Shown here in pieces: positions 2,262-11,610 of a stretch of 35,061 bases of DNA. Position numbers and translations under genes: made by a program. The stretch covers positions 1 to 35,061 of the forward strand of contig CANHIS010000031.1 of NCBI GenBank assembly GCA_947460255.1, in the 5' to 3' direction. The notes under the pieces are model-generated. The model had not been told where the DNA came from. It made no database searches and saw only the letters and a list, made by a program, of their open reading frames with translations. The stretch's first letter is position 1. Each line of letters starts with the position of its first letter. The DNA comes from Bacteroidota bacterium (GTDB lineage: Bacteria; Bacteroidota; Bacteroidia; M30B66).

Positions 2262-3992
2262 TTATTTTTCCCTCCGGGGAAGGCATAAAAATCCTGTTTC
2301 ATTCGACTTCCAAACTTGAAACGAAATGCAGGAATCCATTACACTTTCGTGAAAATGATTCTCGAACGCATGAAACAATCGATCAATTTCCAGCTTTGAG
2401 AAATCGATGGAAGAATATCCTCCAAAACCAATAGGATGTTCACTTTTCCAACTTTCGCTGAGCGGATAATGCATGGCACTGCTTTTTGAAAGAAAAACCA
2501 TCGAAAATGTTGTAGCATTTCCTGCAATTTGGCCACGTTCATTTTTCAGAACCGAGGCTACCATTTGAGCATTGTTGCGTTCAGTAAATGTTAGATTGAA
2601 AAGTGTGGTAAGGTTTATTGTAAAACCAACCATCGCAATAAAGACAAAGCCATGTGCAAAGAATCTGTTGTCGGAGAAAAACAGTTGCAACAGAATTAAA
2701 ACTAATGCTCCTACTACGAGACTCATCAAGAAATTAAATTCGAAATGAACACGCAAACAAACGGTCAGCATCGACAAGGCAAAAATCAATGCCGAAAACT
2801 TAAAATACGATGTTATTCTACCCTTTTTATTTCTATTTATTGCACCAAAAAGTGAGATAAATGCAACATGAAAAAGAAGAAAATAAAATGCAGGGTCGCT
2901 GAATTGAAAGTATGTTCCATCAAAGTTAAAAATCGAATTGGTCGATAGCAAAGCACCAAATGAACTCCAATTTAACATCAGAGCGCCGATCAACATTCCT
3001 ATAAAATTGAATTCTGCCTTTTTCTTGGGTTCTAAAATGGCAGCAATTAATATAGGAAACAGTGGAATAAAGCGACGCCCTGCAAAATCGGATGGAAGTA
3101 AAAACAGAATGCTCAATAAAAAGAAGAATGAAAAACTCCAACGAGAATCAGCCGTAAATCCAGAACCAATTTGGACGAGCAATGCAACACTCATAAGGAC
3201 AACAGACGGATCTTGAAAAAATTCTCTATCAGTAAAATAAACAACCCGAGCCCACAATCCGCTTGGGTCTAATAACTGTGAAACTGTAAAATAATCGGCT
3301 GAAAATTCCTTTAAAAAAGGAGCAAACAAAGAAGTATTGGGTTGCAGATAGAAAAAATAATAGGGGATGATTAAAAATAAAATTGTAGCAATAAAAACTG
3401 CTATTGATTTTCGATCGAATTGTTTCCACCAAAGAATAAAAACAGGAAACACCAGCAAGCACTGATAAATAAATGAGGCTTTCAAGAGAAAACCAGCAAC
3501 GAAACACATTGCGGATAAGCATGCTTTGAATGCGTTGCCATTTTTCAATAAAACTAGACCCAAAAGCAGTAAACCGCCCATGAGAACCTCTGCAATTCCT
3601 AATCGCGCCGAAACAAACCAAACCGTAGAGGTGAGCAATAAAGCGGCATGATTCGCACCGAATGTTTTGTTGAATCTAAGCCACCAAGCTGCACAAACAG
3701 CTGGGAGCAACGAAATGCACCGCAATGAAAAAAAACTGATACCCAAGAGCTTAAATGATGCAAATTGGATCAATACAGTAAGTGGTCCGACCGACAATGC
3801 TCCAGCGAATGGCCCATTCATCCAATTGCCGTTAACGATCATCTGTTTTGCAGGATCCGCCCACCAGGCAGCATCATGTATGTCGTTGGCAACTTTCAAC
3901 CACGACGGATCAGCTTCAGGCCACAGGAAAACCATCACCGACAAAAGAATCAGGCAACAATCAAGAAAGATTTTCCGGGTAGAACTGGCCAT
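2262..3992 (-). CDS. polytopic membrane protein, GT39/ArnT-like glycosyltransferase
   Basis: 576 residues from the ATG at 3992. The frame stays open to a TTG at 4031, but that would run through the terminator hairpin of the preceding gene. After a first transmembrane segment there is a periplasmic loop with acidic residues (NDIHDAAWW, then DPAKQ), the position where GT39/ArnT-type enzymes carry catalytic acids. About a dozen hydrophobic segments follow, then a soluble C-terminal tail of about 80 residues. This topology fits the GT-C glycosyltransferases that use polyprenyl-phosphate sugars. The donor and acceptor cannot be told. It lies downstream of the T9SS hydrolase gene but is separated from it by a terminator, and may lead a transcript with the two lipoproteins. 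Confidence 0.7.
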   Translation of the reverse strand: MASSTRKIFLDCCLILLSVMVFLWPEADPSWLKVANDIHDAAWWADPAKQMIVNGNWMNGPFAGALSVGPLTVLIQFASFKLLGISFFSLRCISLLPAVCAAWWLRFNKTFGANHAALLLTSTVWFVSARLGIAEVLMGGLLLLGLVLLKNGNAFKACLSAMCFVAGFLLKASFIYQCLLVFPVFILWWKQFDRKSIAVFIATILFLIIPYYFFYLQPNTSLFAPFLKEFSADYFTVSQLLDPSGLWARVVYFTDREFFQDPSVVLMSVALLVQIGSGFTADSRWSFSFFFLLSILFLLPSDFAGRRFIPLFPILIAAILEPKKKAEFNFIGMLIGALMLNWSSFGALLSTNSIFNFDGTYFQFSDPAFYFLLFHVAFISLFGAINRNKKGRITSYFKFSALIFALSMLTVCLRVHFEFNFLMSLVVGALVLILLQLFFSDNRFFAHGFVFIAMVGFTINLTTLFNLTFTERNNAQMVASVLKNERGQIAGNATTFSMVFLSKSSAMHYPLSESWKSEHPIGFGGYSSIDFSKLEIDRLFHAFENHFHESVMDSCISFQVWKSNETGFLCLPRREK

Positions 3993-4000
3993 AAACAAAG

Positions 4001-4027
4001 AAGTCCCTCCCGATGTGGGAAGGACTT
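4001..4027 (-). terminator. intrinsic terminator of the T9SS hydrolase gene
   Basis: An inverted repeat of AAGTCC-x-TCCC against GGGA-x-GGACTT with a five-base loop forms a stem of about ten pairs with one mismatch. On the minus strand it is followed by a T-rich stretch (TTCTTTGTTT). It begins 21 bases after the stop of the hydrolase gene and ends 9 bases before the ATG of the next minus-strand gene, so it decides against a longer start for that gene. Confidence 0.75.
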
Positions 4028-4047
4028 CCAAATTAAGTCAAAAAAGA

Positions 4048-5742
4048 TTATTCGATTACGATATTCACCGAACCAACACCTTTGTTTGTTTCAAAACGGA
4101 TCAAGTATAATCCTGAAGCCAAGTTTCCACGGCTAATTTGAACTGCATTGGTATTGATGTTTTGCTCAGTAAGTACCATTTTTCCTGTAAGATCGAACAT
4201 AGACCAGTTGCGGATTGATCCACCATTCTTTGCCTCTAGGTTGATCAAATTGTTAGCAGGATTTGGGAAAGCAATCACAAGATCAGATTTCGCTGCAATT
4301 TCATTGATACCAACAGTTGGGTAAAGATCGCATTCGGCCAAACCAAGAGCACAAACGATGCGTGGGTTAATGAAACGCTGAATGGTATCCATGTAAGTTA
4401 GCGCTGTTGCACGACCTACTTCATTGCTTTGTGCCATGAAAGGATTACTTGCAGCAGATGCTTGGTGAGCAGTAACACCACCACCGTTAAGAATTGGAGC
4501 TAGTGCAGACGGCTGATTGGAATTCCAGAACTGCCAAGGGCTACCGTGATTGAATGGGTAAGTTCCAGCTTCAGTTAAAATGAAAGGAAGAAGACCTTTA
4601 CCAGTTCCTACATTGATTGTGCTTCCGTTAAATGGAATTGTTGTTCCATAATTGGATTCAACTGCTGCAGTTACAGCATCATCATAAATTTTATTGGCAA
4701 ATGAAGCATTGTTTTCGAAGAAGTTTGCACGTTCTACATTGTAACCTGCACCTGTTGCCCAAGGAATAACGATACTTGGTGGTGTAGTTGGAACAACAAC
4801 GTCGCCCAATTGGTAAGGTGCATTTGGATCACGCACTGCGTGGATACCAATCATTGGCACCTGACCTCTGTCCATCCAAGAAGAATCTCCAAGTGCACCG
4901 CCCATGTTGATTACCATGTTTACATCTGATGAATAGCTAGGGTTGTTGGCAATGTTACCTGAAAATTTTGTAAGGTCACCAGTTGTTAGAAGTCCGATAA
5001 GATCATATGGAACATCGTTAGTCCCGTTAAAGTTACCAACGCGGTTCGTATCAATCACTGAGCTATCAGGATTTTGCGTGCGAAGGAACTTAGATCCACC
5101 TAAACCTGGAAGACGACCGATTTTGTCGGGAGAGTTCAAGAAAGCGTGAGCCATGGCAATGTAGCCACCAGTACCTTCTCCTAACAAAACAATCTTGTTA
5201 GGATTAATTTTGTAGGTATTTGAAGTTGCACGGTCGTTGCGAAAGAAGCGAACTGCCGCTTTTGAATCCTGCATTCCTTTGTAAGCTGCATTCAAAATTG
5301 TTCCTGTACGCACCACTTGACTTGGTGAAGTTGGATTCCAACCTAAACGATACTCAATAACAGCTACAACATATCCGCGTTTAGCGAGCAATTTAGCCAT
5401 GTTCACAGCAGAACTATCTTTACGTGAACCGTTTGGAGAACCATTCACAACAGGAGGTAGAAAGTTGCCCGTTGGTATGTAAATAATTAAAGGACGCTCT
5501 TGTTCTGTGTCGATACTGTTTGTTGGATGGTAAATATCGGCTTCAAGCGTATCCAATCCTGGAGGAACTTGACCTGCAGATAAAACAACAGGTAACACAG
5601 AGTAATTTTGTGCATATGTTTGATCCAAAGCAACAGAGATCTGAGCGTCGGTAAAAACCTCAGTTACATAACGCTGCGCTTGAATGTTCGCGCCGAAAAG
5701 CATCAATGCTCCAGCTAAAACTTTAGCGTAAATTTTTTTCAT
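4048..5742 (-). CDS. T9SS-exported alpha/beta hydrolase-like (carboxylesterase-type) protein lacking the nucleophile Ser
   Basis: 564 residues from the ATG at 5742, chosen because a classic signal peptide follows (residues 1-23, ending in IQAQ). Residues about 65-330 resemble a carboxylesterase/BD-FAE alpha/beta hydrolase: IIYIPTG where the oxyanion strand is expected, then YVVAVIEYRLGW, a KAAVRFFR helix and the strand-elbow IVLLGEGTGG. In active family members that elbow reads GxSxG; here residue 190 is Gly (codon GGT on the minus strand), so the nucleophile is missing. The last 80 residues form a T9SS type A sorting domain (FPNPANN, then LTGK, ending in SVNIVIE), so the protein should be exported across the outer membrane and anchored or released. 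Terminators flank the gene, indicating its own transcript. Either a pseudoenzyme or a divergent enzyme. Confidence 0.8.
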   Translation of the reverse strand: MKKIYAKVLAGALMLFGANIQAQRYVTEVFTDAQISVALDQTYAQNYSVLPVVLSAGQVPPGLDTLEADIYHPTNSIDTEQERPLIIYIPTGNFLPPVVNGSPNGSRKDSSAVNMAKLLAKRGYVVAVIEYRLGWNPTSPSQVVRTGTILNAAYKGMQDSKAAVRFFRNDRATSNTYKINPNKIVLLGEGTGGYIAMAHAFLNSPDKIGRLPGLGGSKFLRTQNPDSSVIDTNRVGNFNGTNDVPYDLIGLLTTGDLTKFSGNIANNPSYSSDVNMVINMGGALGDSSWMDRGQVPMIGIHAVRDPNAPYQLGDVVVPTTPPSIVIPWATGAGYNVERANFFENNASFANKIYDDAVTAAVESNYGTTIPFNGSTINVGTGKGLLPFILTEAGTYPFNHGSPWQFWNSNQPSALAPILNGGGVTAHQASAASNPFMAQSNEVGRATALTYMDTIQRFINPRIVCALGLAECDLYPTVGINEIAAKSDLVIAFPNPANNLINLEAKNGGSIRNWSMFDLTGKMVLTEQNINTNAVQISRGNLASGLYLIRFETNKGVGSVNIVIE

Positions 5743-5824
5743 GTTTTTGATTTTTGTTTGGTACGCAAGTACGGTAAAAAGTCGCTTCAAATAAAGCTGC
5801 ACATGAAAGACTTTTCAACCAAAT

Positions 5825-5870
5825 ATATAGCGAACAGCATGAGTGAAAATCCTCATGCTGTTCGCTATAT
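5825..5870 (-). terminator. perfect 19-bp stem hairpin, terminator of the TonB receptor gene
   Basis: A perfect inverted repeat of 19 bases per arm (5825-5843 and 5852-5870) surrounds an 8-base loop. It lies 46 bases beyond the stop of the TonB-dependent receptor gene. On the minus strand the stem runs into TATATTTGG, a weak U-tract. There is no comparable tract on the plus strand. The arm length is unusually long for a terminator. Confidence 0.7.
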
Positions 5871-5916
5871 CAGAGACATTAAGTCGTCTTTTCAAATTTT
5901 GGCTATTAACCGCAAT

Positions 5917-8733
5917 CTAATTGTTGTTTGGGATATCGACCAAAATGGAGAAATAAGCCATTCGACCAACGCGCGGCCCTCCGTAAACCATGAAAACACG
6001 ATTATTTAAGATGTTCGAGGCGCCCAATTTAAATACACTTTTAATTTTCGTAACAGCCCAAGAAATTTGTGCATCCACCATGGCATAGGATGGAATCGAG
6101 CCTGTAAATTGCGGAGCGCCTTCAAATCTGAAGCCTTGAATCCATTTGTAGTTCGCGCTAAACGAGAAATTTTCTCCACGAATAAATGGTAGTTTAATTT
6201 CCCTTCCGTTTACACCGATATTGAATTTATTAAGCGGTGTGTTGAATGCTGTAATTATCTCATCTGTGCTGTCGGGTCTGCTCATTCTGTTGTATGAGTA
6301 ATTCCCAATAACACTGTATTTGTTGGCAAAATAGTAATTCACACCAACCGATGCTCCTTGGGTAAATACCAAATCATTGGTATTGCTCGACATCCTATAA
6401 ACGCCATTTACTTGCGGGAAAATTGGGATTGTAAAATCTGCATCAATACCTACTTTAAAACCAATAAAATCTCTGTAAATACTGTAGTAGTAGCTTGCAT
6501 CTACAAATATTTTCTTAAACCAAGTGCCTCGGTAACCAGCTTCGAAAGTTCTTACGCGCTCTGGTCGAATTGGATCCACATTGAAGTACTGAAGTTTGGA
6601 GAGGTCGGCATTGATTAAGTATTCTCGAAACGATTCTACACGAATAAGAGAATCCTTGCCTTCAAGATTTCCTAACAAAACGGCACGACCAACATTGTAA
6701 AACAAATATTGGTCTTGAAGTGTAGGGTTTCGGATAGCGCTAGAAAATACAGCTCTAAATGTGTGTGTATTGTTCACAGTGTAAACTGCCGACGCGCTTT
6801 GTGTGGAGATATAATTAAAATTCTGGTTCTTATCCACACGCACTGTGGCGCTTAATTTCAAGCGATCTTCTAACAATTTAATTTGGTATCCTGCATAAGC
6901 CCCAAACTCTCGATTAATAATTACGCGGCGTTTGTAAGTGGTATCGGTGCCTTCAATTCTGTCTATTTGGAGTGTATCGCTAAAAATAGAGCCTTCTGAA
7001 TTTGGGCGGTAAATTCGGCCATTGGAACCCACGGTGAGATCGGAGTTCTTTGTGATTTTAAATTTATACTCCCCATGAAGATGGTAAAGTGCCGATCTGT
7101 CTATCAATCGAGAACCTCCTTCAGATAAACTCTTTGATCTAATTTCTGCCAATGCAGAATCAAATCTTGCTGTTCCTGGTTCGAAAAAGTCGAGCTCGTT
7201 GAGGAAAATTTTCTTGTTTACTTTATTTCGAGTTTGAGTGTGTAATCCAAGTAATTCATCGTAATTATCACTAATTACTTGGTCATAAATTGCTTCGTCA
7301 AATTGTGAAGTTGGGTAGCCTGGGAAATTTTGTACCTGAAAATAAGGTGCATTAAAACCGCCTTGTTTCCACGCATTGAAATACTGGCTTGTCCATACAC
7401 TGTTAGACTTCGATAAATTTTGCAATTCAAACGCTGAAACCACAGCATCGAAAGAGTTCCCAGCATTTTCGTGCGTGGCATACATTCGGATAAAACCTTT
7501 GTCTTTTTTCACCAATTCGAGCCTATTCTGGAAGAATAAGATATCCCTTAAGCTAAATCGATTTTCTCCTTGATAAATAGTTGTTCCTGTTCCGAAATTT
7601 GAACTGAATATCAATTCAACATCTGGCTTTATTCGGTAATGAAAGGCCGCATTTAGCTTGAGATTTCGTGTGTTATAATCCACCAAATCTCTTTCTTCGT
7701 AACCATTTCTAAAAATAGCACCTAAACCTGAATTAAATTCTTTGTTAAATGCAGAAGTATAATCATTAAAAAATGTTCCAATAGCTTCGTCTCCGTAGCG
7801 ATTCACGGCATCATATCCTCCAGGATTTCGGGCATCGGCGATTGATTGTTCTGTGGGCGACATATTATCCGCTTCCCAATCGTAGGCACGCATGAAGGAA
7901 ATGTTGAGTTTGTAGGCAAATTTCTCCACGCTGTCTTTATTCTTGAATTTCTGCGCGTAGCGGATAGCCGTTTCGAATAGCTCCCGCTCACCTACTTTCA
8001 TTTGCACAGACAAGCCAGGAAAATCGAACGGACTTTTCGTATTCATGCTGATCACCCCGTTAAAGGCGTTTGGGCCATAAAATGCAGATGAAGCACCAAC
8101 GATAATGTCGACTTTTTGCACGTCGAGTTCCGAAGAACCAAGGAAATTCCCTAACGAAAAGTTCAAGCCTGGCGCCTGATTGTCGACCCCATCGATAATC
8201 TGTAATGATCTAACTGGCGATGTGGAGTTGAATCCCCGCGTATTGATGATTTTGAATCCTAAACTGGCAGCTGTTAAGTCCACTCCTTTTAGTGCTCCTA
8301 ATCCGTCGTAGAAATTGGCTGCAGGGGTTTCCTTAATGGCAATAATATCGAGTGCTTCCACGGTTAATGGCGATTCTCTTTGCTTTTCGGTAATTCGTAT
8401 GTCGGAAATTTCCTGAATCTTTAAAACAGTTTCAGATTCCTTCATTGCAATCTTCACTTTTTGATCGGCAGCGTTCACTTTGTACTCGAATGGCTCGTAT
8501 CCCAAGTAAGAAATCTTGAGATTCACAGGGAAAGTACCCACATTGTTGAGCACGAATTTTCCGTTCACATCTACCGTAGTACCGGTGTTTTTACCAACGA
8601 TCACAACCGTTGCACCAATAAGTGGTTCACCTGTTTTGGTATCAACCACAGAACCTGTAATGGTTTGAGCCTCTAATACTTCTGTACACAAAAGGCAACA
8701 AAGTAAAACTACAATTCTGTAAAGTTTTTGCAT
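5917..8733 (-). CDS. TonB-dependent outer-membrane receptor with carboxypeptidase-regulatory-like domain
   Basis: 938 residues from the ATG at 8733; upstream in-frame codons exist, but this Met is directly followed by the signal peptide (about 1-21, ending in LEAQ). Residues about 24-105 are a CarboxypepD_reg-like beta-sandwich (GSVVDTKTGEPLIGATV, then GTTVDVNGKF), as in SusC-type and Oar-like receptors. The plug domain follows at about 130-235 (INTRGFN, IIDGVDNQ, VDIIVGASSAFYGPNAFNG), then a long beta-barrel with alternating aromatic strands. Such receptors import large substrates across the outer membrane with energy from TonB. No SusD-like partner is adjacent, so the substrate is unknown. 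The preceding gene is a surface protein 97 bases upstream; the following hairpin ends the transcript. Confidence 0.9.
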   Translation of the reverse strand: MQKLYRIVVLLCCLLCTEVLEAQTITGSVVDTKTGEPLIGATVVIVGKNTGTTVDVNGKFVLNNVGTFPVNLKISYLGYEPFEYKVNAADQKVKIAMKESETVLKIQEISDIRITEKQRESPLTVEALDIIAIKETPAANFYDGLGALKGVDLTAASLGFKIINTRGFNSTSPVRSLQIIDGVDNQAPGLNFSLGNFLGSSELDVQKVDIIVGASSAFYGPNAFNGVISMNTKSPFDFPGLSVQMKVGERELFETAIRYAQKFKNKDSVEKFAYKLNISFMRAYDWEADNMSPTEQSIADARNPGGYDAVNRYGDEAIGTFFNDYTSAFNKEFNSGLGAIFRNGYEERDLVDYNTRNLKLNAAFHYRIKPDVELIFSSNFGTGTTIYQGENRFSLRDILFFQNRLELVKKDKGFIRMYATHENAGNSFDAVVSAFELQNLSKSNSVWTSQYFNAWKQGGFNAPYFQVQNFPGYPTSQFDEAIYDQVISDNYDELLGLHTQTRNKVNKKIFLNELDFFEPGTARFDSALAEIRSKSLSEGGSRLIDRSALYHLHGEYKFKITKNSDLTVGSNGRIYRPNSEGSIFSDTLQIDRIEGTDTTYKRRVIINREFGAYAGYQIKLLEDRLKLSATVRVDKNQNFNYISTQSASAVYTVNNTHTFRAVFSSAIRNPTLQDQYLFYNVGRAVLLGNLEGKDSLIRVESFREYLINADLSKLQYFNVDPIRPERVRTFEAGYRGTWFKKIFVDASYYYSIYRDFIGFKVGIDADFTIPIFPQVNGVYRMSSNTNDLVFTQGASVGVNYYFANKYSVIGNYSYNRMSRPDSTDEIITAFNTPLNKFNIGVNGREIKLPFIRGENFSFSANYKWIQGFRFEGAPQFTGSIPSYAMVDAQISWAVTKIKSVFKLGASNILNNRVFMVYGGPRVGRMAYFSILVDIPNNN

Positions 8734-8830
8734 GCTGAACTGCTTTGATTTCAAGTTTCTAAAGTAATCAAGGAAGCCTGAGTTCAGTACAGGTAAGCAA
8801 AAAAATTCTGAACGATGAAATTCACCAGAT

Positions 8831-11542
8831 TTAACGTGTAATGAAGACAGTGCCTTTGTATTCCTTTTCAGGATCGTTAAGTAATAAAACGAAGAAATAT
8901 GTTCCATCAGGATTCTCCTCGCCATCCCAATTGTTTTGGTAATTATCTGAACTGTAAAGCAGTTTGCCCCAGCGGTTATAAATCCAGATTGCAGGATTCT
9001 TGAAAGCTTCCAAATTTCCGATCACAAAAAAGTCGTTTTTACCATCTCCATTGGGTGAAAAAACGTTTGGAACAATCACATCACCAATCACTTTGAGCTC
9101 GGAAATCAAAGTGTCTAAACAGCCTTCAGAATTGGTAACTACGTAAGTTACGTTGTAGGTTCCAGTGTCGGCATAGGTGTAGGTTTGTTGAGGGCCTAAC
9201 GCTGCATTTCCATCGCCAAAATCCCATGAATAAATTACTTGATTGGTTCCAGGGAAAACGAATGATGAATCGGATAAATCCACTGAATTACCTTTAAGAA
9301 TCGTATTTCCAGGATCAGCTGTGAACAAAGCTTCGGGTTCTGCCAGAAGCACTACTACGGTTGCTGTATCTCCGCATCCTTCAGCAGAATTTGAGGAAAC
9401 CGTCCATGTACCTGGACCAACTTCGATGCTTTCGGTGGTACTTCCGTTCGACCAAGTGATGCCGGAAAACTCCCCTTCCGCGGTTAGCGTTGAAATTTCG
9501 CCTTCACAAATTAACGTATCACCAGAAATTGATACCGATGAACTTTCATTTACCACAATATTAAATTGTGCAGGCGGACTATCGCATCCATTCACCGATT
9601 GCACTACCGAATAGTTACCGGCCTGATTAAGTGCAACATCGGTAAACAAAACCTGATCATTTGAGGAGGTAAAATTTGATGGACCATTCCAAGAAATTGT
9701 ACCTATTGCATCGATTGCCGACAACGTGAGCGGAGCGCCTTCACACACAGGAGATACAAATTGCACGTTGAGAATAGGTGGAATTTCGTTGAACGTAACA
9801 TTCACAGTATCGCGAGCTCGACAACCTGCAGAGGTAAATGCTTCGATCCAATAAGTGCCTGGTGATGTGACGTTTAGTGTGGATGAAGTTGCATTTGTGT
9901 TCCACAGGAAATCAACAAAACCTGGACCTGGATTAAGCACCAAATTCGCTGATCCACAAGCAACTACATTGTCACCAAGGTCGATTGCAGGATCATCTTG
10001 CACAACATTCACGGTATCGCTACTCTCGCATCCATCTTTAATAGTTACAACCCAGTATTCACCGGGATCGTAGACGTAAATCTGCTGAATTGTATCACCT
10101 GTGCTCCAGAGGTAAGAATCTTTTCCTTCACCGCCATCGAGCAACAGTGAATCGTTAATACAAACTGTTTGATTTTCACCGAGATAAGTACTCGAAAAAT
10201 CTGAAAAGTAACCGTATCTGCAGCCTGTTGAATTTCCTCCATTGATAATGCCAAGGTGAAACAATTCGGAATTTGTGGCGATATTAATTAAGGATGAGGT
10301 AGTGCCCACAGGAATTTGCGCTTCATTGAAAGATAGTTGTGCAGTCATCCATTCTCCGGATGAACCTGGAACCACAGTGAATGCGGATGCAGGAACTAAC
10401 GTTGTTGAACCATTGAGCAGAAAACTTCCTTCAGAGCCAGGCCGAACCATGATATTAAGTCCAAAGAACTCATTTGTAGATCTTGTAAAGAAAACTGAGG
10501 AAGATCCAGTACATTGAATTGACGGTAAAATTGCGCTTCCTAATTCACAACCGAAGCCAGAAGCATGCAGAACATACACTGGCGCTGAAGATGTGATGTA
10601 ATGTGTGGGATTCACAATGTCGATTGGAAATTGCTGACCAATGTTTAAGGTAGCGACCGGTGTTGCATTTCCATCTAAAAAAACCTCTGTATTATTCTCT
10701 ATTGCAAGCACATAAGCCCTTTCGTTGCTGTTAAGAAAACCCTTCATTACGATATACTCGGTTCCAATTACTCCTGTTGGAACCAATTGATCTCCCATTA
10801 GATCGCGGCAACCTCCTAGAGCGCCAGAATCATCTTTTAAAGTAATTGCAATGGGTTTATTGGAGGTAACAGATGTTCCTACAGGTCTAGTGGCGGCATT
10901 TGTGGAGGTCGATATGCAAGAATATGTTTGTCCGCGGTTGAGCGAAATTGTAAACGGTACACCAGCTGGATGCGTTACCAAATCGGCAGTTGGAGTGATT
11001 GTGATTTGTGTGTTGTCTTCAGTAGCAACGATATCGAACCCGCTAATAGCAAGTGGAGTGTAAGCTCCATTATTGTAGTCGGTTGGAAATGGCGTGTAAA
11101 ATGTTTGCCCTAATGCATTTTTACCTTTTAATGCAAAAATTTCAGGGTTTACAAAATTGTTCACTTCATAATAAGCAGTTACAGACACTGAAGATTCGAG
11201 CAACAAGCCCTTGTTAAGAGCCTGATTTGCAGGTTGATTTTCGATGAGATTTTGAAAAGTAGTTAAATCTATTGTTTCTGTTGATCCTGCTGCAACCGTG
11301 AGGCTAATTGGTGTGAAATTGGGATTTGCAGGTTGAGAAACAGTAATGTCGGCATCCTCAGAAAAAGCGCTTACTCGAAAAACGACTGGATTGTCGCCAT
11401 GATTTGAGGTAACTTCTGGCGCAACAAACCAAAATTGATCGTCGGTTTGTGCATTTAAAATAATTGATGATAAGGTGGATAGGACTAAAAATAATGCGGA
11501 TTTCAGATAATTCACTTGACCTTTTCTCATTTTTTGTTTCAT
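8831..11542 (-). CDS. large secreted protein: IgGFc-binding-like, Ig/PKD repeats, CHU_C (T9SS type B) domain
   Basis: 903 residues from the ATG at 11542; a second ATG at 11530 is equally possible, and both precede the signal peptide that ends in LNAQ. The N-terminal 400 residues (starting TDDQFWFVAPEV, with later EDNTQITI and YVLHASGFGCELGSAILP) match the IgGFc-binding N-terminal domain found in Bacteroidota surface proteins. Four Ig-like modules of 50-60 residues follow, each with a Cys-rich start and a WS/WN-G motif, then one PKD domain (YSWDFGDGN ... TYADTGTYNVTY). The last 80 residues are the gliding-motility-associated CHU_C domain (FSPNGDGKND, YNRWG, NWDGE, ending GTVFITR), a type B T9SS signal. 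It is expected at the cell surface as an adhesin or matrix protein; the ligand is unknown. Confidence 0.88.
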   Translation of the reverse strand: MKQKMRKGQVNYLKSALFLVLSTLSSIILNAQTDDQFWFVAPEVTSNHGDNPVVFRVSAFSEDADITVSQPANPNFTPISLTVAAGSTETIDLTTFQNLIENQPANQALNKGLLLESSVSVTAYYEVNNFVNPEIFALKGKNALGQTFYTPFPTDYNNGAYTPLAISGFDIVATEDNTQITITPTADLVTHPAGVPFTISLNRGQTYSCISTSTNAATRPVGTSVTSNKPIAITLKDDSGALGGCRDLMGDQLVPTGVIGTEYIVMKGFLNSNERAYVLAIENNTEVFLDGNATPVATLNIGQQFPIDIVNPTHYITSSAPVYVLHASGFGCELGSAILPSIQCTGSSSVFFTRSTNEFFGLNIMVRPGSEGSFLLNGSTTLVPASAFTVVPGSSGEWMTAQLSFNEAQIPVGTTSSLINIATNSELFHLGIINGGNSTGCRYGYFSDFSSTYLGENQTVCINDSLLLDGGEGKDSYLWSTGDTIQQIYVYDPGEYWVVTIKDGCESSDTVNVVQDDPAIDLGDNVVACGSANLVLNPGPGFVDFLWNTNATSSTLNVTSPGTYWIEAFTSAGCRARDTVNVTFNEIPPILNVQFVSPVCEGAPLTLSAIDAIGTISWNGPSNFTSSNDQVLFTDVALNQAGNYSVVQSVNGCDSPPAQFNIVVNESSSVSISGDTLICEGEISTLTAEGEFSGITWSNGSTTESIEVGPGTWTVSSNSAEGCGDTATVVVLLAEPEALFTADPGNTILKGNSVDLSDSSFVFPGTNQVIYSWDFGDGNAALGPQQTYTYADTGTYNVTYVVTNSEGCLDTLISELKVIGDVIVPNVFSPNGDGKNDFFVIGNLEAFKNPAIWIYNRWGKLLYSSDNYQNNWDGEENPDGTYFFVLLLNDPEKEYKGTVFITR

Positions 11543-11596
11543 TTTCCAATAATAGCAGATTGCGACCAATTGTTTGATACAAAATGCAGAAGTTTC

Positions 11597-11610
11597 ATGC
11601 AACGTTGCAT
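11597..11610. promoter_or_regulatory. perfect 14-bp palindrome in a divergent intergenic region
   Basis: ATGCAACGTTGCAT is its own reverse complement. It lies in the 110-base gap between the start of the CHU_C surface-protein gene (minus) and the start of the SDR gene (plus), where both promoters must be. A dimeric regulator could bind here, but no regulator gene is adjacent and chance occurrence is possible. Confidence 0.35.

Follow-up and report, generated by a model that had tools for sequence, protein, structure and literature searches.

A T9SS-type esterase-like family of Bacteroidia with glycine at the nucleophile position and a paired TonB-dependent receptor gene

We analysed a window of 35,061 nucleotides, meaning the whole stretch of DNA studied, from contig CANHIS010000031.1 of a Bacteroidota bacterium (GenBank assembly GCA_947460255.1; class Bacteroidia, M30B66). 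A gene for an esterase-like protein, hereafter the pseudo-esterase, lies on its minus strand, and a gene for a TonB-dependent receptor is located directly upstream (Table 1). The mechanical open reading frame of the pseudo-esterase starts at 5802, compared with the ATG at 5742 used here, and the minus-strand translation contains NPNKIVLLGEGTGGYIAMAH. The Pfam scan matched BD-FAE (PF20434) with an E-value of 6.6e-12 at residues 69–207, and the fold-profile score of 45.8 bits against a cut-off of 26.8 places the protein in this fold. The same profile was detected at E ≤ 0.01 in all 64 rows of a family alignment, A2. At the C-terminus, Por_Secre_tail (PF18962; E 2.5e-11) and TIGR04183 both scored above their cut-offs, and a T9SS tail was present at E ≤ 0.01 in 59 of 61 full-length relatives. 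From these matches we infer that the pseudo-esterase is exported by the T9SS. AlphaFold2, run on a five-row alignment, gave a mean pLDDT of 32.5. The viral contigs searched yielded no relative.

Table 1 Features of the pseudo-esterase locus in the window.
Feature	Position	Strand	Basis or detail
T9SS-type pseudo-esterase, 564 aa	4048..5742	(-)	ATG at 5742; signal peptide by eye; BD-FAE and Por_Secre_tail matches
Type A T9SS sorting domain	4054..4269	(-)	PF18962, residues 492-558; TIGR04183, residues 492-563
NHGSPWQFW segment, residues 398-406	4525..4551	(-)	alignments; position computed from residue numbers
Retained catalytic-type Asp305 (RDPNAPY)	4828..4830	(-)	alignments; position computed from residue numbers
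Nucleophile elbow GEGTGG	5164..5181	(-)	Gly190 codon GGT at 5173-5175; Thr191 codon at 5170-5172
Altered oxyanion motif Pro90-Thr91-Gly92-Asn93	5464..5475	(-)	alignments; position computed from residue numbers
Perfect inverted repeat (arms of 19 nt, loop of 8 nt)	5825..5870	(-)	between the receptor and pseudo-esterase genes
Partner TonB-dependent receptor (CarboxypepD_reg_2 and Plug)	5917..8925	(-)	domain scans; recurrence at relative loci

The receptor probably starts downstream of its listed ATG, because matches in relatives mostly begin near residues 40–85. Its TIGR04056 (SusC/RagA) score was 96.6 bits against a cut-off of 368.25, which places it outside the SusC/RagA family. The inverted repeat between the two genes lies in a region (5790–5916) with an RNA fold z-score of −6.07; it may serve as a terminator, an attenuator or a processing site, and any link to the receptor/pseudo-esterase system would be putative. 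Two further minus-strand ORFs were noted. The one at 8831–11602 encodes a large adhesin-like protein of T9SS type B in which IgGFc_binding and PKD domains were detected, and this gene recurs in four of 64 neighbourhoods, the window counted. A 589-residue ORF at 2262–4031 had no Pfam or NCBIfam match, and a similar ORF was found in two of 63 relative loci.

The elbow of the pseudo-esterase reads GEGTGGY, so that the GxSxG nucleophile of serine alpha/beta hydrolases is replaced by Gly190. When the family profile was aligned with 6nkf, a solved esterase, GqGtGg fell opposite GDSSGG, with Gly in the nucleophile column, and a joint alignment placed Gly190 opposite the Ser found in 38 canonical sister esterases (rows picked by their Ser motif, with ends trimmed for joint alignments). 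Both alignments agree with an earlier sequence-only reading, which had assigned this GGT codon to the position of the catalytic Ser. That reading had also regarded the gene as not decayed, and the orthologues bear this out. GEGTGGY was conserved in all seven closest orthologues (L010–L016), with the codon GGT in five and GGA in two, and pairwise dN/dS was 0.045–0.154 for orthologue pairs with finite dS, several pairs being saturated. The gene is under purifying selection. A more distant member from the window's taxonomic family (L017) had the elbow GQGSGGY, and no strong pseudo-esterase match was found in an 84% complete genome of the same genus (G005).

We searched 395 genomes of the class with the pseudo-esterase, and 247 matched at 1e-12; identity was 37–50% among the matches listed outside the window's taxonomic family. 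Ninety-three sequences were aligned, leaving 87 distinct non-canonical rows after removal of one duplicate and five canonical rows. Their nucleophile column held Gly in 84, Ala, Asn and Tyr in one each, and Ser in none. The view that Ser never occurs in non-canonical rows was dropped when weaker matches gave a sister clade with Ser or Asn.

A wider elbow survey covered 180 distinct matches in tiers of bit score, pooling best matches, about one locus per genus and then weak matches, and is not a random sample. At ≥340 bits (n = 100) the nucleophile column was Gly in 95, Asn in two, Ala, Tyr and Asp in one each and Ser in none, and the following residue was Thr in 60 and Ser in 36 (96 together). 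The 18 matches at 230–340 bits had Ser in 12, Gly in three, Asn in two and Ala in one, followed by Ser in 16; two of the three Gly rows were a fragment or second copy. Below 210 bits (n = 62) the column was Ser in 61 and Gln in one, with Ala next in 61. Thirty of 395 genomes of a separate phylum draw matched at 1e-20, and all elbows read from matches outside the class were of the GxSAG type. We prefer these survey counts to those of alignment A2, whose 64 rows were picked for Gly at the nucleophile column, making its 64/64 Gly uninformative; A2 left out the three other rows (Ala, Asn, Tyr) and the five canonical rows.

Read from these alignments, Gly at the nucleophile column characterises a widespread family and is not confined to one gene. 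The sequence-only reading had treated it as the oddity of a single gene, which does not hold; its proposed alignment of close homologues gave Gly in 95 of 100 and no Ser at the column. A sequencing error or gene decay, for which a change of one base (AGT to GGT) would suffice, has a negligible probability and is ruled out by the Gly of the seven closest orthologues with its two GGA codons, the low dN/dS and the family-wide Gly.

The other parts of the active site were compared in the same alignments. Asp was found at the Asp305 column in 64/64 family rows, so the catalytic-type Asp is retained. Canonical sisters had Asp in 38/38 and His in 38/38, five of the 38 rows being gapped at the His column in joint alignments where row ends were cut. 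No His after the Asp was conserved across the family. Within 10 residues of the column aligned with the sisters' His, only 3/64 family rows had a His at all, and in 18/64 the domain contained none beyond the Asp. The best His column after the Asp was that of His426 (31/64 or 46/88 rows in two alignments), and the His399 stretch had His in 12/88. Alignment near the sisters' His is gappy and uncertain, with different family residues placed there by two alignments. Both His399 and His426 were present in 8/8 rows of the window's own lineage. An initial statement that the His is missing was accordingly softened to the lack of a family-conserved His, given the two His that follow the Asp in the window's lineage, one of them in a column where roughly half of the rows carry His. 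This slightly lowered our confidence in the loss of classical catalysis and slightly raised that in a displaced nucleophile. For the same reasons a partly rebuilt active site is possible in some lineages.

The oxyanion motif, HGG in the sisters, reads HTG in most rows of the family and PTG in the window protein, the second residue being Thr in 61/64 family rows. A C-terminal region with a PWxWW-like segment stands where the sisters have the catalytic His loop; within the corresponding NHGSPWQFW segment, P402 and W403 are conserved and His399 is not. Nearly invariant positions of the family include the glycines of the elbow, the Gly of the oxyanion motif and the Asp segment; G92, D109, R132, D159, D286, D305 and P402 are among the invariant residues. 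The sequence-only reading had described the rest of the fold and the T9SS domain as intact: Asp305 and the BD-FAE and T9SS matches agree with this, but the absence of a family-conserved His, a change it had overlooked, and the altered HGG motif do not. Judged by these alignments, classical Ser-His-Asp catalysis has very probably been lost.

A quick tree reconstructed without the elbow columns showed that 14 of 15 middle-tier rows form one clade (SH-aLRT 94). This clade was sister (SH-aLRT 94) to the Gly family, the latter including the Ala, Asn and Tyr rows and a long-branch middle-tier row (L206), and both together were split from the canonical group with an SH-aLRT of 100. The 14 rows had Ser in 12 and Asn in two at the nucleophile column and a similar C-terminal segment (GFEPFGW or alike), and no His column after the Asp was common to at least four of them. 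Members of the L163 type have the elbow GSSSGAY. By parsimony on this tree, His was probably lost first and Ser later, because the sister clade has Ser (Asn in two rows) without a conserved His. With such a clade, laboratory work could test in which order the triad was lost.

The receptor gene, which the sequence-only reading had not noted, recurs beside the pseudo-esterase. The receptor family was encoded directly upstream on the same strand at 48/63 relative loci, establishing an adjacent receptor and partner gene, and directly downstream at three more; neither arrangement was seen at 12 under the adjacency rule. Two loci (L039 and L111) are one place, giving 47/62 distinct loci with the receptor directly upstream. 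Apart from these two genes, wide recurrence was limited to ORFs (24 and 14 loci) that overlap the pseudo-esterase or receptor ORFs.

Co-occurrence was counted in the 395 genomes at thresholds of 1e-24 for the hydrolase-like gene and 1e-130 for the receptor. Both were present in 166 genomes (middle-tier genomes included), the hydrolase-like gene only in five, the receptor only in seven and neither in 217. Two other threshold pairs gave 159/7/11/218 and 167/4/16/208 in the same order. Since relatedness inflates the Fisher values of co-occurrence, counts were also made within taxonomic families. The within-family count covers 12 hand-copied families, genomes without any match being mostly unlisted by name, and gave 84 both, four hydrolase-like only, two receptor only and 26 neither. 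The eight families holding both states (f1, f10, f20, f27, f41, f60, f61 and f62) had 40 genomes with both, 24 with neither and none discordant; the six discordant genomes of the 12 families fall in f28, f43 and f50. Two families outside the 12, f9 (G240) and f38 (G178), have one discordant genome each. Among the seven receptor-only genomes are two (G331 and G376) whose contig breaks off at the receptor.

The middle-tier clade has the receptor as well, with the hydrolase-like gene non-adjacent in G056, G183, G237 and G346 and on a different contig in G181. Another fixed partner for receptors without a pseudo-esterase neighbour was considered and rejected, as the next genes at L153, L155 and L156 are housekeeping genes; at L157 there was no same-strand gene just downstream of the receptor. 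A T9SS S15-type peptidase adjoins the receptor in a single case without an adjacent pseudo-esterase (L158:1121-4030).

The pseudo-esterase shares its fold profile and Asp with BD-FAE (PF20434) esterases and with T9SS-tailed canonical relatives from the same and from related genomes. By eye, the canonical relatives have a similar N-terminal RYxxEVF-like segment, and a T9SS tail scored above the cut-off in 5/5 of those scanned, as in the pseudo-esterase. It differs from BD-FAE esterases in having Gly for Ser, no family-conserved His, HTG for HGG and a remodelled C-terminal part with PWxWW. SusD hands substrate to SusC, and the pair studied here resembles that system in combining a TonB-dependent receptor carrying a CarboxypepD_reg-type N-terminal domain with an adjacent exported partner. 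It differs in that the window receptor is far below the SusC/RagA cut-off and in that the pseudo-esterase has a T9SS tail and no SusD match in Pfam scans, relatives included.

Our preferred reading, to which we assign a probability of roughly 0.55, is that the pseudo-esterase belongs to an esterase family with a dismantled triad that binds a substrate without cleaving it and hands it over to the paired receptor. The ancestor would have been a secreted BD-FAE-like serine esterase, its His loop being replaced first and its Ser then changed to Gly. The present protein would reside at the cell surface, where the old active-site cleft or the surrounding face would bind the uncleaved substrate, plausibly a glycan or esterified glycan. 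Contacting the receptor encoded by the adjacent gene, it would pass the substrate on for TonB-driven uptake, SusD-like in role and not in sequence. Its service to the paired receptor as a T9SS-exported surface capture partner is, taken separately, about an even bet. The sequence-only reading had proposed a surface pseudoenzyme that acts by binding; loss of the classical mechanism upholds the pseudoenzyme, whereas binding and surface location we, too, can only infer.

More tentatively, and with somewhat less than even odds, the pair may represent a widespread second receptor-plus-capture-protein uptake system in Bacteroidia. A dead T9SS-exported esterase would play SusD's part, and living genomes would still hold each stage of its evolution, from the active esterase through a Ser form lacking a conserved His to the Gly form. 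If so, many Bacteroidia catch substrate with a repurposed dead esterase on behalf of a non-SusC TonB receptor, and neuroligin-type pseudoenzymes would have a counterpart in bacteria whose partner can be named. The annotation "alpha/beta hydrolase" would mislead on the chemistry of the pseudo-esterase. A literature search of limited reach, whose phrase matching may miss spellings of alpha/beta hydrolase with a slash or Greek letters, found no paper on the bacterial pair, the matches listed concerning only eukaryotic carboxylesterases or neuroligins.

Alternatively, the pseudo-esterase could be an adhesin or structural surface protein comparable to neuroligins, its link to the receptor reflecting co-regulation and not substrate transfer. 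According to PMC12931606, neuroligins are extracellular proteins of the alpha/beta-hydrolase fold without a catalytic Ser, and their role is one of binding, not catalysis. The family profile matched neuroligin-4 (E 9.3e-6), and the adhesin-like type B gene lies upstream in the window. The recurrent neighbour, however, is the TonB receptor, the adhesin-like gene appearing in only the four neighbourhoods mentioned above. The pseudo-esterase also differs from neuroligins in being bacterial, of T9SS type and paired with a TonB receptor, and its COesterase (PF00135) score of 20.5 bits against a cut-off of 27 leaves it outside that family. We consider this alternative unlikely, though it is the strongest of those weighed.

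A retained enzymatic activity with an unusual mechanism appears still less probable. A displaced nucleophile, Thr191 or Ser, would act perhaps with His399 or His426, or Asp305 would act with water or a metal; a displaced nucleophile had also been raised by the sequence-only reading. The Thr or Ser that follows Gly in close relatives (60 and 36 of 100), the Ser at this position in 16/18 middle-tier matches, the Asp305 column and the two His of the window's lineage, one of them in a column with His in 46/88, are consistent with such a mechanism. It is made unlikely by the lack of family-wide conservation of either His399 (12/88) or His426 (46/88). Ordinary elbows also have Ser after the nucleophile, as in 6nkf (GDSSGG), and the second HGG residue is Thr in nearly all family rows. 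The residue after the nucleophile normally contributes a backbone NH group to the oxyanion hole.

Similarly improbable is a receptor partner that binds no substrate, such as a lid, gate or assembly factor with the hydrolase fold merely as scaffold. The tight genomic link to the receptor would be expected here too, but the near-invariant elbow glycines, oxyanion-motif Gly and Asp segment suggest that the old site is still in use, as in the preferred reading of a substrate-capturing pseudo-esterase.

Features found in a minority of relatives, namely CBM fusions, SusE matches and adjacent esterases, hint at a function that involves glycans or glycan esters. The pseudo-esterase domain is fused to domains of starch-binding type in two proteins of family f50, both with CBM_20 and with a dockerin in one (L066) and CBM_48 in the other (L067); the receptor family is not adjacent at these loci, whose contigs measure 9.4 and 4.8 kb. 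SusE matched at E ≤ 0.01 in 4/61 full-length relatives (best 2e-8), and two of the matches viewed individually fall below the Pfam cut-off. A canonical GSSAGAF esterase directly follows the pseudo-esterase in 5/6 f61 loci read, and a T9SS tail scored above the cut-off in 4/4 scanned of these five esterases. Receptor, pseudo-esterase and canonical GSSAGAF esterase are consecutive on one strand at L073, L078, L100, L104 and L114. Tandem second copies of the pseudo-esterase were observed at L097, L087 and L110, the L097 copy having Tyr at the nucleophile column (GEYTGGD).
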